Positions 48,354 through 59,599 of a stretch of 64,000 nucleotides of DNA are shown here, one piece after another. This DNA comes from an uncultured Anaeromyxobacter sp. (lineage in GTDB: Bacteria > Myxococcota > Myxococcia > Myxococcales > Anaeromyxobacteraceae). The DNA is taken from the NCBI GenBank assembly GCA_903874275.1, contig CAIQRS010000253.1, positions 1 through 64,000 of the forward strand. Reading direction: 5' to 3'. The translations under genes and the position numbers were made by a program. Positions within the stretch are counted from its first letter, which is position 1. Every line of letters starts with the position of its first letter. The notes below the pieces were generated by a model, which saw only the letters and a program-made list of their open reading frames with translations, had not been told where the DNA came from and did not search any database.

Positions 48354-49007
48354 ATGCTGACGAAGCGATTCCTCGAGCTGAACCTCCTCGGCGCCGAATG
48401 GGTCAACTGGGTCCTGGTGATCGCCTCCTTCATCGGGCTGGCCATCACCATCGACCGTCTCCTGCTCTACTGGCGCACCCGGGAGCGCTTCGCCGCCCTC
48501 CAGTCCGGCCTCCAGGACGCGCTGCGCGGCCAGGATCTGGCTGCGGCCCGGTCGCTCGTCGCCGGCGACTCGCTCATCCGGAACGTGCTGCGCGCCGGCC
48601 TCGACGCCGTCGGCCGGGGCGAGCACGACCCCAAGTCGGTCGAGGAGGAGATGCTCGCCGCCCTTGCCGCCGAGCGTACCCGCTACGACGCACGCGTCGC
48701 CTGGCTCACCACCATCGCCAACATCGCGCCGCTGGTCGGATTGCTCGGCACCATCATCGGGATCGTCGGGGCCTTCTACGGCCTGGGGCAGGCCGGCACC
48801 ACACAGTCGGCCGGCAACCCCCAGGTGATGTCCTCCATCGCCGAGGCGCTGGCGTCGACCGCCTTCGGCATCTTCGTCGCCGTTCCCGGGGTGGTGGCCT
48901 ACAACCTGCTCAAGGCCCACATGGGCGTCCGGCTCCGCGAGGCCGAGTCGCTCATGCGGGAGATCCTGGCCAACCTTGCGCGGTTCGAGTCGGAGGACGT
49001 GCAGTGA
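48354..49007 (+). CDS. exbB: ExbB/TolQ-type proton channel subunit
   Basis: 217 residues, MotA/TolQ/ExbB family. First membrane helix ~17-38 (WVLVIASFIGLAITIDRLLLYW), then a cytoplasmic region and two helices in APLVGLLGTIIGIVGAFYGL and STAFGIFVAVPGVVAYNLL. With ExbD it uses proton motive force to energise TonB. First gene of the import operon; its stop overlaps the ExbD GTG. Confidence 0.93.
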   Translation: MLTKRFLELNLLGAEWVNWVLVIASFIGLAITIDRLLLYWRTRERFAALQSGLQDALRGQDLAAARSLVAGDSLIRNVLRAGLDAVGRGEHDPKSVEEEMLAALAAERTRYDARVAWLTTIANIAPLVGLLGTIIGIVGAFYGLGQAGTTQSAGNPQVMSSIAEALASTAFGIFVAVPGVVAYNLLKAHMGVRLREAESLMREILANLARFESEDVQ

Positions 49008-49441
49008 ACACCGGCGGCTTCGGCACCGACCCGGCCGACGAGCTGGTCACCGGCGTGAACATCACCCCCGTCGTCGACGTGATGCTCGTCCTGCTCATCG
49101 TCTTCCTGGTCACCTCGTCGCTCATCGTCTCGAGGAGCATCGAGGTCGAGGTCCCTCGCGCCGCCACCGGCTCCGAGACCGCGGTGGGGCTGCTCGCGCT
49201 GGTGGTGGCCTCGACCGGAGAGCTCTACGTGAACGGCCAGCGGGGCAGTGTGGACGACATCCCCCGCGCCGTGGCCGAGGCCCGCAAGCGGCTCGACGCC
49301 GGGCAGAAGCTCACCGGCTTCGTCTCGGCCGACGTGTCGGCGCCCTACGGCCGGTTCGCCGAGGTGGTGGACCGGTTGCGGCAGGAGGGCGTCACCGACA
49401 TCGCGCTCGACACCAAGCCCATCGAGGCCTCCGGGAAGTGA
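49004..49441 (+). CDS. exbD: ExbD/TolR-type proton channel subunit
   Basis: 145 residues from GTG 49004-49006, GGAGG seven bases upstream, overlapping the exbB stop. Single membrane helix with the proton-carrying Asp in NITPVVDVMLVLLIVFLVTS, then a periplasmic domain (ELYVNGQRGSVDDIPRAV, RFAEVVDRLRQEGVTDIAL). Standard length. Confidence 0.93.
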   Translation: MNTGGFGTDPADELVTGVNITPVVDVMLVLLIVFLVTSSLIVSRSIEVEVPRAATGSETAVGLLALVVASTGELYVNGQRGSVDDIPRAVAEARKRLDAGQKLTGFVSADVSAPYGRFAEVVDRLRQEGVTDIALDTKPIEASGK

Positions 49442-50172
49442 CCCGCGTCGGCAACACCTCCGTCCACGGCTGGGCGATCGCGCTCGTCGTCTACGCGGCG
49501 TTCTTCGCCTGGGTGTTCCTGGCGCCCGCGCCACGGCGCGACGCGGGGCCCCGGCGGGCCCCCACCCGCGTGACCCTGGTGGACGTCCGGCCGAAGGCGC
49601 CCGAACCCCCCCCTGCCCCACCTCCAGAGCCTCCGCGCAAGATGGAGGTGGCGAAGGGGACGGTTTCGAAGACGCCGCCCGCGCCGGCCCCCCTCCTCGC
49701 GACGCCCCCCAGCGCCACCCCGCCTCCGCCTGCGGCGCCTCGCCGCTTCGCCGTCTCGCTCGAGGCCACGATCCCCGGTGGCGGGATCGCCGTCCCCACC
49801 GCCCCGGCCGGCTCCGCACCCGCGCTCCGCGCCACGCCGGGCGGCACCAGCGACCGCGCCGACGCGCCGGCCTATTACACCGAGCCCGATTCCGCCCCCT
49901 CGCTGATCGCCCAGCCCGGCCCGGCCGAGATGCGCGCCCTCTACCCGGATGCGGCGCGCCGCTCCGGGCTCGAGGGGGACGTCCGGCTGGAGCTCGAGGT
50001 CGCGGCCAGCGGAGAGGTCACCGGATCGCGCGTGGTACGCTCCGCCGGCAATGGCTTCGACGAGGTGGCGCAGCGGCTCGTCAGGCGGTTCCGCTTCCGA
50101 CCAGCCACGCGGGCCGGCAAGGCGGTCCCGGCCACCGTGGCCTGGACGTACAAGTTCCGTCTCGAGGGGTGA
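49438..50172 (+). CDS. tonB: TonB-family energy transducer
   Basis: 244 residues from GTG 49438-49440, overlapping the exbD stop (GTGA). N-terminal membrane helix (WAIALVVYAAFFAWVFLAPAP), a long Pro/Ala-rich periplasmic spacer (~45-150) and a C-terminal TonB domain (~155-244: YPDAARRSGLEGDVRLELEVAASGEV, FDEVAQRLVRRFRFRPATRAGKAVPATVAWTYKFRL). Ends 4 bp before the receptor. Confidence 0.93.
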   Translation: MTRVGNTSVHGWAIALVVYAAFFAWVFLAPAPRRDAGPRRAPTRVTLVDVRPKAPEPPPAPPPEPPRKMEVAKGTVSKTPPAPAPLLATPPSATPPPPAAPRRFAVSLEATIPGGGIAVPTAPAGSAPALRATPGGTSDRADAPAYYTEPDSAPSLIAQPGPAEMRALYPDAARRSGLEGDVRLELEVAASGEVTGSRVVRSAGNGFDEVAQRLVRRFRFRPATRAGKAVPATVAWTYKFRLEG

Positions 50173-50176
50173 ACCG

Positions 50177-52768
50177 ATGCACCGTCCCGGCCGTACCGTG
50201 CCGCTCCTGTCGATCCTCTGGCTCCTCGCCAGCCCCGCCCACGCGGCCGCCCAGGGAGCCCAGGTCACCAAGACGGTCGAGGCTCCACCTCCACCCGCGC
50301 CCGAGCCGACGCTCGCCACCTCTCCGCGCCTGAAGGAGATCGTGCCGGCCGACGTCCCACCCGGCACGAAGTTCCCGTCGCCCGAGGTGGTGGTGGTGCT
50401 CTCCCTCGACGTCTCCGCCGAGGGCAAGGTGGAGAAGGCGTCGGTGGAGAGCGGCGCCGGCGAGCCCTTCGACTCCGCGGCCCTGTCGGCCGCGCGCCGC
50501 TTCGACTTCGAGCCCGGCCGCCTCACCACCGGTGAGCCGGTCCCGGTCACCGTGACCTTCCGGCTGCGCATCCAGGAGCCCACCGCGCCGCCTCCCGCGC
50601 CGGTGAAGCTCACCGGCTACCTCCTCGAGCGGGGCTCCCGCCTTCCCATCCCCAACGTCCCGGTCTCGGCGGTGGTGGGGCAGGAGATCGTGGCCCGCGC
50701 CACGACCGACGGCTCGGGGCGCTTCCAGATCGAGGGGCCCGCGGGGGAGTTCCGGCTGGTGGCCTCCCCTCCCGACCGGCAGAAGCTCGACCTGCTCGTG
50801 AAGGGGCAGGCCGGCGAGATCCGGGAGGAGAACTTCCTCCTCGAGGGCCTGGGAGGCCCCAACGAGACGGTGGTGAGCGCCTCGGCCATCCAGCGCGAGG
50901 TCATGAAGGACGTCCTCACCGCCGAGCAGGTCTTCACCGTCCCTGGCTCGGCCGGAGACACGCTCAAGGCGGTCCTGAACCTGCCCGGCGCGGCCCGCGC
51001 CCCCTTCGGCGCCGGGCTCCTCGTGCTGCGCGGCTCGGCCCCCGGCGACAGCAAGGTCTTCCTCGAGTCCCAGCAGATTCCGCAGCTCTACCATTTCGGA
51101 GGGATCCGCAGCACCTACGCACCGGCCTTCCTCCAGTCGGTCGAGTTCGTGCCCGGCAACTTCTCGGTGGACTACGGGCGTGCCCAGGGCGGCATCATCG
51201 ACGTGCGGGTCCGCGACCCCCGCCAGGACGGCTTCCACGGACAGGCCGACGTGAACCTGTACGACGTGGGCGTGGAGATGGAGGGCGGGCTGGGCGGCGG
51301 CTGGTCCGTGGGCGGCGCCGCCCGGCGCTCCTGGATCGACACCATCCTCCCCATCTTCCTCCCCAAGGACTCCAACCTCTCCTTCAGCACGGCCCCGCGC
51401 TTCTACGACTTCCAGTTCATCGCCAGCTGGAGCCCGGACGCCAGCCAGAAGCTCCGCCTGATCTTCTACGGGTCGATGGACCGTCTGGTGGCGCTCTTCG
51501 ACAAGCCCATGCGCGATCCGACCATCACCGGCCAGCTCGACGCGCGGGTCTCCTTCTACAACCTGCAGGCCGAGTACTCGAAGATCTTCTCCGAGCGGCT
51601 CCGCCAGGACACCTCGGTGGTGATCGGACTCCAGGAGATCAGCACCCAGATCGGTCCCCAGTACTTCTTCGATCTGAACGTGCGCCGCCTCTCCCTGCGC
51701 AGCACCTGGGCCTACGACTTCTCCTCGCAGTGGAACCTGCGGGCCGGCATCGACGCCGAGATGGGGCGGGCCGCCATCGGCGTCAACTTGCCCAACTCCA
51801 CCGGGGCGAACCCTCTGCCCCCCTCGTCGCTGCCCCAGATCGGCGCCCAGCTCACCACCATGTACTACTCGCCGGCGCTCTTCGCCGAGCTTCGCTGGGC
51901 CCCCATTCCCAACCTCTCCATCCTCCCGGGTGTCCGGGCCAACTGGTTCTCGGACATCAACCAGTGGGCCGTGGACCCGCGCCTGCTGGCCCGCTGGGAG
52001 GTCGTCCCCGGCACCGTGGTGCGCGGGGCGGTGGGCATGTACCAGCAGGCTCCCAATCCGCAGAAGACCAACTCGGCCACGGGCAACCCCTGGCTCGATC
52101 CCGAGCGCAGCCTGCAGACCAGCATCGGGGTGGGGCAGAAGTTCATGGAGGGGATCTCCCTCGACGTGACCGGCTTCTACAAGGCACTCACCCAGCAGGC
52201 CATCCCCAACTCGGCGTCGAATTACAATCCCAGCGCCCCGCGCTACACCAGCACCGGCACCGGGACGATCTACGGCGTGGAGACCCTGCTCAAGGTGGCC
52301 ATCGGCGACAGCTTCGCGGGCTGGCTGGCCTACTCCTTCCAGCGGTCGCTGCGCACCGACCCGCCCGACCTGCAGCGCCCCTACGACTTCGACCAGCCGA
52401 ACAACCTGACCGTGCTCGGCACCTACCAGCTCGGGCGCGGCTGGTCGGCCGGCGCCCGCTTCCGGCTCGTCTCGGGCAACCCCTACACCCCGGTGGTGGG
52501 GTCGGTCTTCGACTCCGCGTCGGGGGTCTTCGTGCCCGTCTACGGGGAGACCAACAGCGACCGGCTGGCCAGCTTCTGGGCCCTCGACCTGCGCGTCGAC
52601 AAGGTCTGGACCTTCAAGGACTGGACGCTGACCCTGTACCTCGACACCCAGAACGTGACCAACCGGAAGAACCAGGAGGGCTGGACCTACAACTTCGACT
52701 ACACGGAGAAGACGCCCACGACCGGACTTCCCATCCTGCCCATCCTCGGGCTGAAGGGAGAGTGGTGA
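50177..52768 (+). CDS. TonB-dependent receptor with an N-terminal TonB-like domain
   Basis: 863 residues from ATG 50177. Signal peptide (1-25); a TonB C-terminal-like domain (~50-130: VVVVLSLDVSAEGKVEKASVESG, FDSAALSAARRFDFEPGRL, VTVTFRLRI); a carboxypeptidase-regulatory-like fold (~135-210: LTGYLLERGSRLPIPNVPVSA); plug (~215-345) and outer membrane barrel to the end (last strand PTTGLPILPILGLKGEW). The N-terminal TonB-like domain is unusual and known mainly in deltaproteobacterial receptors. Substrate unknown; the operon has TetR control and an own lipoprotein. Confidence 0.9.
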   Translation: MHRPGRTVPLLSILWLLASPAHAAAQGAQVTKTVEAPPPPAPEPTLATSPRLKEIVPADVPPGTKFPSPEVVVVLSLDVSAEGKVEKASVESGAGEPFDSAALSAARRFDFEPGRLTTGEPVPVTVTFRLRIQEPTAPPPAPVKLTGYLLERGSRLPIPNVPVSAVVGQEIVARATTDGSGRFQIEGPAGEFRLVASPPDRQKLDLLVKGQAGEIREENFLLEGLGGPNETVVSASAIQREVMKDVLTAEQVFTVPGSAGDTLKAVLNLPGAARAPFGAGLLVLRGSAPGDSKVFLESQQIPQLYHFGGIRSTYAPAFLQSVEFVPGNFSVDYGRAQGGIIDVRVRDPRQDGFHGQADVNLYDVGVEMEGGLGGGWSVGGAARRSWIDTILPIFLPKDSNLSFSTAPRFYDFQFIASWSPDASQKLRLIFYGSMDRLVALFDKPMRDPTITGQLDARVSFYNLQAEYSKIFSERLRQDTSVVIGLQEISTQIGPQYFFDLNVRRLSLRSTWAYDFSSQWNLRAGIDAEMGRAAIGVNLPNSTGANPLPPSSLPQIGAQLTTMYYSPALFAELRWAPIPNLSILPGVRANWFSDINQWAVDPRLLARWEVVPGTVVRGAVGMYQQAPNPQKTNSATGNPWLDPERSLQTSIGVGQKFMEGISLDVTGFYKALTQQAIPNSASNYNPSAPRYTSTGTGTIYGVETLLKVAIGDSFAGWLAYSFQRSLRTDPPDLQRPYDFDQPNNLTVLGTYQLGRGWSAGARFRLVSGNPYTPVVGSVFDSASGVFVPVYGETNSDRLASFWALDLRVDKVWTFKDWTLTLYLDTQNVTNRKNQEGWTYNFDYTEKTPTTGLPILPILGLKGEW

Positions 52769-53625
52769 TGAACCGCTCCCTCGCCGCCTCGCTCCTCGCC
52801 GCCTCGCTCCTCACGGCCGGCTGCACCAACGACTTCGCCCCCCAGGGCGACCTTCTCGGACTCCGGGTGCTGGCGCTCGTGGCCAACCCGCTCGAGCTCG
52901 CCCCCGGGCAGCCGGTGACCATCCAGCCCAGGAACTACCTGCCGCCCGGCTCCACCGTCGTGGAGCAGCGCTGGACCTTCTGCCCCATCAGCGCGGGGGC
53001 GGTGGCCGCCTACGCCTGCGCGGTCCCGCAGTGCGAGGTGGACGTCCCCGCATCCCCGGACGGATCGATCACCACGAACCCGACCACGAAACTCCTGGAG
53101 TGCCTGAAGGTCATCAACCCCGACCTCCCGCCGGGCGTCCTCCCTCCCAGCGTCCCCGACCAGTTGCAGACCGTCTTCCGCTACCGGGTCGCCACCGACG
53201 ACGCGGTGTCGCGCGAGGCGGTGCTCCAGATCCCGCAGTGGACCCGGCGCGCCCCGTCCGATCCCAACCTCCCGCCGGTGATCCTCGGGGTCGAGATCGG
53301 CGGCCAGCCCGCGCGGGTGGGCGTGCCCACCCCTCCGCTGCCGGTGGACGGGCTGCTGCCCGTTCGCCTCCTCATCGATCCACTCAGCGTCCAGACCTAC
53401 GTGGACGCGGCCGGGGTCACCCAGACCGAGACCATGACCGGCTACTTCTACACGACCGCCGGGACCTTCAGCGCGGGCATCACCACGGGCACGGACACCA
53501 CCACCGACCTGGAGGGCACCGGCCTTCTGCCCGGCCAGACCACGGCCGAGGTCTGGGTGGTCGCGCTCGACCTGCGCGGCGGCCAGGCGGTCGCCGGCCC
53601 CTTCACCGTTCCGATCGGCCCGTAG
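52768..53625 (+). CDS. Lipoprotein of the TonB import operon
   Basis: 285 residues, ATG sharing one base with the receptor stop. Lipobox LLTAGC at ~14-19, then two Ig-like or beta-sandwich parts: FAPQGDLLGLRVLALVANPLELAPGQPVTIQP and VILGVEIGGQ, ending with WVVALDLRGGQAVAGPFTVPIG. Probably an outer membrane partner of the receptor, or a surface binding protein. No family recognised. Confidence 0.75.
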   Translation: MNRSLAASLLAASLLTAGCTNDFAPQGDLLGLRVLALVANPLELAPGQPVTIQPRNYLPPGSTVVEQRWTFCPISAGAVAAYACAVPQCEVDVPASPDGSITTNPTTKLLECLKVINPDLPPGVLPPSVPDQLQTVFRYRVATDDAVSREAVLQIPQWTRRAPSDPNLPPVILGVEIGGQPARVGVPTPPLPVDGLLPVRLLIDPLSVQTYVDAAGVTQTETMTGYFYTTAGTFSAGITTGTDTTTDLEGTGLLPGQTTAEVWVVALDLRGGQAVAGPFTVPIGP

Positions 53626-53906: not shown

Positions 53907-55135
53907 GAAACCGCCCGGGCCTCCGCGCCCCGCTCCTCGGCCTCGCGCCGCAGGACCCGGGGCTGCACCGCGGCGAGCAGGAGCGGCAGCGCCACCGCCA
54001 TCGCCCCGGAGAAGGCCGCCACCTTCCACATCCCCAGGAGGGCGCCTCCCTCCCCGGTCGAGAGCAGCGCCGAGGAGAGCAGGGCCCCGCCGGCGGAGGC
54101 CAGGTGCTGTACGGCCGACTGGGTGGACTGGAAGCGCGCCCGCTCCGAGGCCCGCGGCACCCGCGAGGCCAGCGTCGAGAGGGATGGATTCCGGACCGAG
54201 TTGGCCAGGATGAAGAGGATGAAGATCGCCCAGGCCGGGAGGAGCGGCGCCGGCGGCGCGAAGTCGAGCGCCAGGTTGAGCAGCAGGACCACCGTCCCCG
54301 CCGCCGCCGTCCGCGGGGCGCCGAAGCGATCGACGGCTCGCCCCACCACCCGGAGAACCGCGAAGGAGAGCACCCCCCCGGCCATGTAGAGGAAGCCGAG
54401 CCGGTCGCGGGGGAGTCCGGCGTTGAACTGGAGGAAGGCTGCCAGGTTCGGGACCAGGGCGAAGGTTCCGGCCATGGCCGTGGCCGTCGCCGAGAGGCTG
54501 AGCAGCGCCGCCGGCTCCCGAAGGAAGGCGTAGCCCCGCGCCGCGGCGGCCCGGGCGTGCACGAGATGGCCGCGCATGGGCGGCATGAGGAAGAGCGCAC
54601 CGGCGGCGACGACCACTCCCATGCCGGCCACCGCCAGGAACGGAGTGCGCCACCCGCCGGCCTGGGCCATCCAGAGTCCGGCCGGCACCCCGACCACGGT
54701 GGCCACCGAGAACGCCCCCATGACCAGCCCCATGGCGCGGCCGCGCCGCTCCGGGGGCACGGTGTCGGCGACGATGGCGAAGGCGAGCGAGGTCGCCGGC
54801 CCCCCGAAGAGCCCGGCCACCACACGCGCGGCGAGCAGCGTCCACAGCCCCGTGGCCAGCCCCGCCGCGGCCGTCGCAGCCACCAGCCCCGCCATGGCCA
54901 CGGCGAGCGCCGAGCGCCGGTCGAACCGGTCGAGGAACCCGGAGCCGGCCGCCCCCGCCGCGGCCGCCGCCAGCGTGTAGCTGCCGGTGACGAGGCCGAG
55001 GCTGGACATGGGGATCCCCAGCGCGGCGGCGAAATCCGGCCCCAGCGGGACGACCATGACGAAGTCGAGGACGTTGACGAACTGGACCGCCGCCACCAGC
55101 AGCAGCACGTTCCGCTCCCGGCGAGGGGGCGTCAC
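53903..55135 (-). CDS. MFS transporter (drug-efflux type)
   Basis: 410 residues from GTG 55133-55135, overlapping the upstream regulator stop (GTGA). Twelve membrane helices. The start VLLLVAAVQFVNVLDFVMVVPLGPDFAAALG and the segments GFLDRFDRRSALA and PPERRGRAMGLVMGAFSVATVVGVPAGLWMA are typical of the DHA1 arabinose/chloramphenicol-efflux group. Translational coupling to a B12-type MerR-like regulator suggests its expression is tied to that regulator. Confidence 0.88.
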   Translation of the reverse strand: MTPPRRERNVLLLVAAVQFVNVLDFVMVVPLGPDFAAALGIPMSSLGLVTGSYTLAAAAAGAAGSGFLDRFDRRSALAVAMAGLVAATAAAGLATGLWTLLAARVVAGLFGGPATSLAFAIVADTVPPERRGRAMGLVMGAFSVATVVGVPAGLWMAQAGGWRTPFLAVAGMGVVVAAGALFLMPPMRGHLVHARAAAARGYAFLREPAALLSLSATATAMAGTFALVPNLAAFLQFNAGLPRDRLGFLYMAGGVLSFAVLRVVGRAVDRFGAPRTAAAGTVVLLLNLALDFAPPAPLLPAWAIFILFILANSVRNPSLSTLASRVPRASERARFQSTQSAVQHLASAGGALLSSALLSTGEGGALLGMWKVAAFSGAMAVALPLLLAAVQPRVLRREAEERGAEARAVS

Positions 55136-55959
55136 GCCGGGTCCGGCCTGGATCCGGCCTCGACGAGCTTGAGCCACCCACGGAGCTCCTGGAAGGTGAC
55201 CACCCGGGCTCCGTAGGGGATCCACTCCGGCCAGGGGCCGGAGCCTCCCAGGAGCAGCTGGACCTCGCCGGCCCGGCAGATGGCGCCGAGCCGCTCGGTC
55301 TGGGCCAGGAGGTCGCCCGGGTCGGCCACGGAGCTGGCCGAGACGGCCACCGCATCGACGCTCCCGCTCGCCACGTGGGCCACGATCTCGGAGAGCGGCA
55401 CGCGCCGCCCGGCCCAGAGAACCGGCCAGCCGTGCTCGCGGATGACGATCTCGGCGAGCAGGAGGCCGAGGGTGTGCTCCTCCCCCTCCGCTGTGGTGAG
55501 GAGGAGCCGCGGGGCTCCGGGGCGCGCCGGCAGGTGGTCCGAGACCTGGGCCAGGCAGCGGGAGAGCCGCTCGGTGGCGACGTGCTCCTCGAGGATGGAG
55601 AGCGTCCCCTCCGCCCAGCGCTCCCCGATCTCCTCGAGGACGGCGGCCAGGGACTCGGCGACCTTCCACCAGGCGCCGAGCCGCGCCCGTTCCGCGTAGA
55701 GGGTGGCGAGCAGCTGGTGGGTGTCGCAGTCGGAGAGGAGGATCTCCATCCAGCCCTCGACGTCCGGGCCGTGCTCCGGCTGGACCGCACCCGTCTGGTC
55801 CTTCAGGAAGCGCTCCACCTCCACCGGGTCGAACCGGCGGTGGCGCCCCACGGTGCGGGCGCAGCGGAGAAGCCCCATGTCCGCCCAGCGCTTCACCGAA
55901 CCCGCGGTGACCCCGAGGATCCTGGCCACCTCGGCGCTGGTGAGGAGCTTGTCGGTCAT
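55132..55959 (-). CDS. CarH/LitR-like B12-binding transcriptional regulator
   Basis: 275 residues from ATG 55957-55959. MerR-type helix-turn-helix (~5-55: LTSAEVARILGVTAGSVKRWADMGLL), then a four-helix bundle and a Rossmann B12-binding domain. It has the CarH signature W-x9-E-H as W115...E125-H126 and the cobalamin lower-ligand motif E161-H162-T-L-G in place of DxHxxG, spaced as in CarH. CarH proteins bind adenosylcobalamin in the dark as repressor tetramers and dissociate in light. The residue after W115 is Ala, where CarH has the His that ligates cobalt after photolysis, so the light response may differ. Confidence 0.82.
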   Translation of the reverse strand: MTDKLLTSAEVARILGVTAGSVKRWADMGLLRCARTVGRHRRFDPVEVERFLKDQTGAVQPEHGPDVEGWMEILLSDCDTHQLLATLYAERARLGAWWKVAESLAAVLEEIGERWAEGTLSILEEHVATERLSRCLAQVSDHLPARPGAPRLLLTTAEGEEHTLGLLLAEIVIREHGWPVLWAGRRVPLSEIVAHVASGSVDAVAVSASSVADPGDLLAQTERLGAICRAGEVQLLLGGSGPWPEWIPYGARVVTFQELRGWLKLVEAGSRPDPA

Positions 55960-56107
55960 CGTCCCCTTCGCCTTGTCGGATTTGCCGATTCGTTTCAATC
56001 GATTCGACCGGGGAATCCCCCTCTGGGGGGCACCGCCCCTCCCCTCCTTGCTCCTGTGGGGCGTCCATCGAGTAGACTGCGCCGCCTTGTTCGCCCCCCT
56101 CGACAAG
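55960..56107. promoter_or_regulatory. Divergent promoter region of the CarH-like and PAP2 genes
   Basis: 148 bp with direct repeats CGATTCG and AATCGATTCG (about 55984-56010) next to the CarH-like gene and a G/C hairpin (GGGGAATCCCCCTCTGGGGGG, arms around 56010-56030). CarA/CarH operators are repeated AT-containing sites close to the promoter, so these repeats are candidates. Confidence 0.4.
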
Positions 56108-57848: not shown

Positions 57849-58577
57849 CTACCGCTGCATGCCCTCGACCAGCACCGGGTCGCTCTGCTCGGGCAGGCGC
57901 TCCTCGGCGAGGTCCATCATGTGGCCGGAGCGGCGCGCCTTGGTCTCCAGGTAGAAGCGGTTGAACTCGTTGGGCGGGATGACGTGGGGGATGCGCCCCG
58001 AGATCTCGACCCCGTGCTGGGACAGCTGCCGGATCTTGTCGGGGTTGTTGGTCACCACCCGGACCGATTTCACTCCCAGGCTGCGCAGCATGTGGGCGGC
58101 GACGGCGTAGTCCCGTTCGTCGTCCCGGAACCCCAGGGCCTGGTTGGCCTCCACCGTGTCGAGCCCCTGCTCCTGCAGCGCGTAGGCCCGGATCTTGTTG
58201 AGGAGCCCGATGCCCCGCCCCTCCTGGCGCAGGTAGAGCAGGATGCCCCTCCCCTCACGCTGGATGGCCCGCAACCCCTCGGTGAGCTGGTCGCGGCAGT
58301 CGCAGCGCAGGGACCCCATGACGTCGCCCGTCAGGCACTCCGAGTGGAGCCGGACCGCGACCTCGGCCTCGCCGACCACGTCGCCGTGCACCATGGCCAC
58401 GTGCTCCTTGCCGTCCCGGTTGTTCCAGAACCCGACCAGGCGGAAGTGGCCGAAGCGGGTGGGGAGCTCGGCCACCGCCACCACCCGGACGCACACCCGC
58501 GCCGGGCCGAACCCGTCGCACTCGTGATCCCGGTCTCGCGCCACCAGGGCGCGCAGCGCATCCTTCCCCTGGCTCAT
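57849..58577 (-). CDS. ribA: GTP cyclohydrolase II
   Basis: 242 residues. Zinc Cys C81, C92 and C94 (HSECLTGDVMGSLRCDC), then catalytic ILLYLRQEGRGIGLLNKIRAY and VEANQALGFRDDERDY. It opens GTP to start riboflavin synthesis. A ~45-residue N-terminal extension (DALRALVARDRDHEC...) precedes the RVVAVAELPTRFGHFRL core. It overlaps the FAD oxidoreductase gene by four bases. Confidence 0.95.
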   Translation of the reverse strand: MSQGKDALRALVARDRDHECDGFGPARVCVRVVAVAELPTRFGHFRLVGFWNNRDGKEHVAMVHGDVVGEAEVAVRLHSECLTGDVMGSLRCDCRDQLTEGLRAIQREGRGILLYLRQEGRGIGLLNKIRAYALQEQGLDTVEANQALGFRDDERDYAVAAHMLRSLGVKSVRVVTNNPDKIRQLSQHGVEISGRIPHVIPPNEFNRFYLETKARRSGHMMDLAEERLPEQSDPVLVEGMQR

Positions 58578-59599
58578 GCCACCTCCGGGGCGGCGAGGCG
58601 CCGCCCGAGCTCCCTACCGGATATCCAGGCCGCCTCCACGCCGCCACCCGGCGCGAACCGATCCCCGCAGATCCCCACCGATCCCCCGGCCGGGAGCCGG
58701 ACCAGGACCGGGCCGGCCAGCTCGGAGGCGAGGTCGGAGCGGGCGAACTCCCACCGGTGGGCGTGGGTGGAGGACGGCCGACCGGCCCAGTCCCCGGCGA
58801 CGCGCGCCGCCTCGGCGAGCAGGGCGGCGGGCCAGTCGGGATCGTCGAGGCGCCGGCGCGCCCAGGCGGGCTGCGCCTGGATCACCAGCCCGACGAACGG
58901 CGCGTCCTCCCGCTTGCCCGACTCGTTCCCGAGGTACTGCAGCGCGCGGGAGTCCTCGGGGTACCAGGCGTCCCACTCCGGAGCCGGCGTTCCCTCCGGG
59001 TAGGCGGCGCAGAGGGACAGCGAGGGCTCGCTCGCCGAGTTCTCGAGGAGCGCCCGGATGGCCGAGAGCGGACGGGGCAGGTCGGGCGTCCCGTCGAGCA
59101 GCCGGAGCACCTGCTCCGGGGCGAGCGCGAGGACGAGGTGCCTGGCCCGGACAGCCTCGCCCCCCTCGAGGAGCGCCGCCGGCAGCGGTCCCGAGAGGTC
59201 GAGCGCCTCAACCCGGGCGCCGGTGCGTATCTGGAGTCCCGACGCCAGCTGTCGGGGAAAGGTCGTCACCCCGTCGACCACGGCGAAGCGCTCTTCCCCG
59301 GCACGGAAGGCCTCCGGCTGGCACGGCCTTCCCGTACCCCGGACGCGGCGCGGCCAGCCCTCGATCCGCCGCGGACAGGCGGCGCGGATGGCCGCCAGGT
59401 AGTCCGGATCCCGGCCGTGGAGGAAGGAGACCCCGTGGTCGAAGGGCATCCCGAGGAGCCGGTGCGTGGCGCAGCGCCCTCCCACGCCGCGCGCCCGGTC
59501 GAGCACCTGGACGCCTCGCCCCCCGGCGGCGACCGCGCGGGCGCAGGAGACTCCGGAGACCCCGGCGCCGACCACCAGCACGTCGTGAGCCGCGACCAT
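58574..59599 (-). CDS. FAD-dependent amine oxidase / renalase-like oxidoreductase
   Basis: 341 residues. N-terminal dinucleotide fold VLVVGAGVSGVSCARAVAAGGRGVQVLDRARGVGGRC is the renalase-type FAD motif, with FDHGVSFLHGRD next and a C-terminal GICGDRFAPGGGVEAAWISGRELGRRL closing the FAD site. Stop overlaps the ribA start, so it may share transcription with flavin synthesis. Substrate unknown. Confidence 0.85.
   Translation of the reverse strand: MVAAHDVLVVGAGVSGVSCARAVAAGGRGVQVLDRARGVGGRCATHRLLGMPFDHGVSFLHGRDPDYLAAIRAACPRRIEGWPRRVRGTGRPCQPEAFRAGEERFAVVDGVTTFPRQLASGLQIRTGARVEALDLSGPLPAALLEGGEAVRARHLVLALAPEQVLRLLDGTPDLPRPLSAIRALLENSASEPSLSLCAAYPEGTPAPEWDAWYPEDSRALQYLGNESGKREDAPFVGLVIQAQPAWARRRLDDPDWPAALLAEAARVAGDWAGRPSSTHAHRWEFARSDLASELAGPVLVRLPAGGSVGICGDRFAPGGGVEAAWISGRELGRRLAAPEVA

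Follow-up and report, generated by a model that had tools for sequence, protein, structure and literature searches.

A predicted B12-dependent light switch of the CtMerR kind coupled to an MFS exporter gene in an uncultured Anaeromyxobacter

The regulator-exporter locus

The window, i.e. the whole stretch of DNA analyzed here, comprises 64,000 nucleotides from the genome of an uncultured Anaeromyxobacter sp. (5.07 Mb, 98.9% complete). It encodes a real and well-delimited regulator, P0001, whose 275 amino acids begin at an ATG and form an N-terminal winged helix-turn-helix (wHTH) of the BldC type and a C-terminal cobalamin-binding domain (CBD; Table 1). An MFS exporter gene begins with a GTG at 55135 and overlaps the TGA of the regulator by 4 bp (GTGA), in agreement with the coupling that an earlier note on this DNA had described; the PAP2 gene which the note placed divergent from P0001 is indeed there, and is possibly a co-target. 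The note had further stated that the regulator controls neither carotenoid nor cobalamin genes here, and none is found beside P0001. Genome-wide, no match to phytoene synthase or photolyase was detected at E<=0.001; a cobalamin adenosyltransferase was found.

Table 1. Features of the P0001 locus. Positions are those of the window unless given as residues of P0001.
Feature	Position	Strand	Evidence
P0001, BldC-type wHTH and cobalamin-binding domain	55132..55959	-	ORF, Pfam, AlphaFold, Foldseek
BldC-type winged HTH, residues 5-55	55795..55947	-	HTH_17 1e-11, HTH_BldC 2e-12, alignment to 6ama
Four-helix cobalamin cap, B12-binding_2, residues 102-138	55546..55656	-	Pfam; helices in model
G112-ER-W115, GxxW motif	residues 112-115	-	alignment
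W115 (adenosyl-stacking Trp) and A116 (place of TtCarH His132)	55612..55617	-	alignment
E125-H126, EH motif	55582..55587	-	alignment
B12-binding Rossmann domain, residues 151-241	55237..55509	-	Pfam
G159-E-E-H162, GxxH motif; H162, predicted lower axial cobalt ligand	55474..55485	-	alignment
G184-RRV-P188, GxxxP motif	55396..55410	-	alignment
MFS exporter, ~410 aa	53903..55135	-	nearest NCBIfam model MxcK, 237.9 bits vs. cut-off 525
Candidate operator	55978..56009	.	GATT at 55979, 55987 and 56001; block conserved in three genomes
PAP2-family membrane protein, divergent from P0001	56087..56968	+	start TTG 56087 or ATG 56108; PAP2_3 3.8e-20
ExbB-ExbD-TonB-TonB-dependent receptor-lipoprotein operon	48354..53625	+	
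GTP cyclohydrolase II and renalase-like FAD oxidoreductase	57849..59599	-	

The 4-bp overlap between regulator and exporter genes occurs in three genomes of the genus, i.e. the present one and two whose P0001 orthologs are 90% (G016) and 83% (G015) identical. The relatives named here are uncultured Anaeromyxobacter metagenome bins, presumably of lake origin to judge from the bin names. Among 193 genomes of the phylum, 100 contain a homolog of the exporter; its surroundings vary among the six cases inspected, and only in this genus does it adjoin a regulator. Hence, capture of the exporter by the regulator looks recent, and the idea that it serves as a dedicated photoreceptor partner throughout the phylum was rejected.

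Two further units lie near P0001. The TonB operon is convergent to the P0001 operon, and pairs of receptor and lipoprotein genes also adjoin BldC-type cobalamin regulators in G163 (L068), where the regulator concerned is one of a tail-to-tail pair, and in G187 (L072). A TonB-dependent receptor adjoins the regulator in three of the five lineages that hold both genes; many genomes also have the receptor-lipoprotein unit with no regulator close to it. For this reason, and because no cobalamin riboswitch was found anywhere in the window, a role of the receptor in B12 uptake was rejected. By eye, the region upstream of the receptor contains no obvious copy of the repeats described below, and we treat its proximity to BldC-type regulators as a lead outside our main claim. 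The other unit encodes GTP cyclohydrolase II; ribA is also divergent from a P0001 homolog in another genome (G036, L067).

Light signature and class of the regulator

All four motifs that define light-responsive cobalamin domains (GxxW, EH, GxxH and GxxxP; Yu et al., PMC11796333), used here as the SignatureFinder signature, occur in P0001 at places equivalent to those of CarH. The residues on which the earlier note relied (W115, A116, E125, H126, H162) were all recovered. Their W-x9-E-H spacing is exactly that of W131, E141 and H142 in CarH of Thermus thermophilus (TtCarH); the CarH spacing also claimed for H162 is off by one, the step from the Trp to the lower ligand being 47 residues in P0001 vs. 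46 in TtCarH. Both orthologs keep W115, E125, H126, H162 and P188, and their GxxH motif reads NEEH vs. GEEH in P0001. According to Pfam, HTH_17 (1e-11) and B12-binding_2 (5e-6) match above the cut-off, and B12-binding (1.3e-6, 28.7 bits) falls just below its cut-off of 32.1. A Foldseek search of the PDB with the AlphaFold model (mean pLDDT 87) returned full-length TtCarH as the top match, followed by a photocobilin and CtMerR.

The designation as a CarH-like B12 photoreceptor needs to be divided. The light signature, the kin located by light-protection genes and the structural match are best explained by a B12-dependent photoreceptor regulator, but P0001 is not CarH proper. It shares with TtCarH (5C8A-F) the CBD fold, W-x9-EH, the lower axial His and the full-length Foldseek match; CarH proper was rejected on four features, namely the score on the NCBIfam CarH equivalog NF052513 (67.6 bits vs. 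a cut-off of 400) and the MerR-type DNA-binding domain, His132 and carotenoid target that distinguish CarH. In P0001, the nearest models for the HTH are HTH_17 and HTH_BldC, the latter at 46.8 bits (2e-12), below the curated BldC cut-off of 77; a match to MerR_1 also exceeds its Pfam cut-off, since the MerR and BldC kinds of wHTH are related.

P0001 is of the CtMerR kind, which has already been described. When a profile of the close family was compared with solved structures, CtMerR of Chloracidobacterium thermophilum was the best sequence match (8JBS, 1.4e-45; TtCarH, 1.8e-24). CtMerR (8JBS dark, 8JBT light) likewise consists of a BldC/MerR-like wHTH followed by a CBD, with the GxxW-EH-GxxH-GxxxP signature and no His after the Trp. 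The residue after the Trp is Ala in P0001 and Arg in CtMerR; P0001 further differs by a shorter linker, and the identity in the structural alignment is ~25%.

Because of its signature and its kin, a light function of P0001 is likely. With a probability of roughly two in three, we take P0001 to be a transcriptional repressor that depends on AdoCbl and responds to light in the manner of CtMerR; the binding and photolysis of AdoCbl, the change of oligomer, the use of the operator and the sign of regulation are all predicted. The adenosyltransferase gene, the conserved 4-bp overlap and the position of P0001 among ufa-linked regulators in the tree (see below) also speak for this reading. Against it speak the NEEH of both orthologs, the altered wing of the G015 ortholog, the wide occurrence of the exporter apart from regulators, the failure to find a sigma-70-like promoter near the repeats, the weakly supported place of CtMerR in the tree and the behavior of TtCarH-H132A.

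The position of His132

In P0001, an Ala (A116) follows the Trp where TtCarH has His132, as the earlier note had read, and the note took this for a missing light-state ligand. As a singular anomaly this does not hold, because the His is absent in 22 out of 22 BldC-type relatives and also in CtMerR, SasPcob and AbDPcob. In the same alignment, it is present in five of the six MerR-type proteins from the phylum, the sixth having Tyr. The P0001 orthologs contain Ala or Thr at this place, and across the whole clade Ala, Thr, Ser, Arg, Glu and Lys are observed; most BldC-type relatives nevertheless retain the rest of the signature. Functional data exist for proteins of this sort: in CtMerR, with Arg, green light causes photolysis and converts the tetramer to a monomer, and SasPcob (Gln) and AbDPcob (Tyr) are both photolysed (PMC11796333). 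Lack of the His is characteristic of the BldC-type group, is already familiar from experiment and is by itself no defect. Hence, an aquo- or hydroxo-cobalamin light state is predicted, and not a loss of light sensing.

What is more delicate is the strength of the switch. TtCarH-H132A keeps photolysis, but is mostly tetrameric in the light (PMC10442372), so that a protein with Ala could be a weak switch. Under this variant of our reading, the P0001 tetramer would stay largely assembled in the light and its DNA affinity would change in a graded manner. The Ala of P0001 speaks for it, but CtMerR monomerises in spite of its Arg, and all BldC-type relatives do without the His while most keep the remaining signature; we regard the variant as rather unlikely, although it deserves serious consideration.

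The genome encodes two more proteins with the EH motif and the lower His, i.e. a MerR-type CarH-like regulator with Gln at the His132 place (L094 4656-5582) and a CBD protein without a recognized HTH that has Met (L096 6069-7106). With P0001 and its paralog, four proteins of this sort were found in the genome, and none of them keeps His132. Sister genera of the same family possess MerR-type CarH-like proteins with His132 retained (L015, L016, L017, L021); judged by eye from their names, the neighboring genes are hydrogenase/nickel maturation-like (HypA/HypB-like) or LarA-like, not carotenoid genes.

Relatives, candidate DNA sites and proposed light response

The same genome has a paralog of P0001 (G000:C204:12398-13195), and divergent from it lies an operon of seven genes (L026 12398-19607). 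These encode two CMAS methylases, an FAD oxidase in the UfaD position, a DUF1365 protein, a DUF1295 protein and two proteins without assignment. DUF1365 is the domain of UfaO, a protein of furan-fatty-acid synthesis; when R. sphaeroides loses ChrR, the level of the pathway product increases (PMC7380195). UfaM belongs to a light-induced LitR cluster of Pseudomonas (PMC9758184). By its gene content, the operon appears to be of the furan-fatty-acid/photo-oxidative-stress type. A parallel is offered by class II LitR of Pseudomonas (PplR/PmlR), with ufaM in its regulon and a light-stress regulon without carotenoid genes; of the cobalamin domain, these proteins retain the four-helix part alone, and they act together with a LOV protein (PMC9758184). 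The arrangement of paralog and ufa-type operon is found in four genomes of two genera (the present one, G015, G016 and G017). Among family genomes with a completeness of 90% or more, four have both DUF1365 and a BldC-type regulator with intact motifs, and 12 have neither; the four belong to two genera, so that independent events are few.

In G036, a homolog with 46% identity to P0001 adjoins CrtI (493 bits vs. a cut-off of 238) and CrtB (197 bits vs. 26), and is divergent from ribA; the homolog in G106 has a DCC1-like gene divergent from it, together with acyltransferase and DUF1295 genes. The ufa-type operon of the paralog and the carotenoid cluster in G036 support a role in light. They also bear on a second reading, according to which P0001 is a sensor of B12 (corrinoid) level, with AdoCbl binding setting DNA binding and light playing no biological part. 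The same domain could report the supply of AdoCbl, and the adjacent TonB operon recurs by BldC-type regulators in G163 and G187; but close relatives that sit with genes of light and singlet-oxygen responses, a window in which no cobalamin riboswitch was found and an operon free of cobalamin genes make this reading improbable.

In the phylogenetic tree, P0001 groups with the ufa-linked regulators and with one of the two tail-to-tail regulators of G163 (88/91), within a BldC-type clade of 19 members (100/98). CtMerR branches next to this clade with weak support (88/34), and the BldC-type sequences as a whole are not recovered as a single clade. The histidines of EH and GxxH are lost in the relatives of G187, G034, G021b and G012b. 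Such degenerate members speak for a further reading, in which the cobalamin domain of P0001 is vestigial and the protein, as CarA in Myxococcus, is light-blind and works independently of B12; but W115, E125, H126, H162 and P188 are intact in P0001 and both orthologs, which renders this very unlikely. The degenerate relatives themselves (L072, L073, L014, L032), without the EH and lower-ligand histidines, are probably light-blind and CarA-like.

The DNA-binding head resembles BldC of Streptomyces (6AMA/6AMK), a protein of 68 residues that differs from P0001 in having no ligand domain. Its DNA contacts R30, W31, H46, R47 and R48 (PMC5859096) align to R24, W25, H40, R41 and R42 of P0001, and its sites are 9-bp direct repeats, AATTNNNN(C) (PMC5859096). 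The block with GATT elements between P0001 and the PAP2 gene, a candidate direct-repeat site, is kept in three genomes; CGATTCG-N7-CGATTCG (55986-56006) is exact in two of them and, in the 5.07 Mb genome, the only perfect match. At the ufa promoters of the paralog, tandem GATT/GACT elements with a 9-bp period directly precede the first gene in three out of four genomes, the fourth copy being imperfect. With regard to head-to-tail binding on 9-bp AATTNNNNC direct repeats as in BldC, the pattern GAYT-N5-GAYT was found in four of seven promoters and in ~2% of the shuffles of each, which is only suggestive since the motif was picked after inspection. At exactly 9-bp spacing, no GAYT pair was found in the promoter of P0001 itself, and a scan for sigma-70-like promoters and terminators near the repeats found none. 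In the G015 ortholog (L030 12968-13795), the wing GRHRRF has become GRQPRF with loss of the wing His/Arg, and its promoter repeats are the least conserved; possibly, this copy is drifting.

According to the light-responsive repressor model, AdoCbl would keep P0001 tetrameric in the dark, with His162 below the cobalt and Trp115 and Glu125 around the adenosyl group. Through its BldC-type wHTHs, the tetramer would occupy the direct repeats (55978-56009) and keep the regulator-MFS operon, possibly also the PAP2 gene, repressed. In green light, the Co-C bond would break, the adenosyl group would leave and aquo- or hydroxo-cobalamin would form with no bis-His switch; the oligomer would then loosen and the exporter be expressed.

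Here, a predicted light switch of the CtMerR kind is wired to an exporter in a genome without detectable phytoene synthase or photolyase. On a broader scale, we propose tentatively, at somewhat less than even odds, that the Myxococcota possess a separate clade of B12 photoreceptors with a BldC-type, direct-repeat-binding head and no bis-His state. Its members may have been put to use for an exporter, as here, and elsewhere for carotenoids, furan-fatty-acid synthesis and a TonB-dependent uptake operon, which would give a B12 light response in bacteria without carotenoids or photolyase. If this is true, B12 light sensing in non-phototrophic bacteria would be tied neither to carotenoids nor to the His132 ligand switch. 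Natural candidates without His132 (Ala, Thr, Ser, Arg, Glu, Lys) would make the disputed need for a bis-His state directly testable, and the clade would yield candidate green-light switches with another DNA-binding head.
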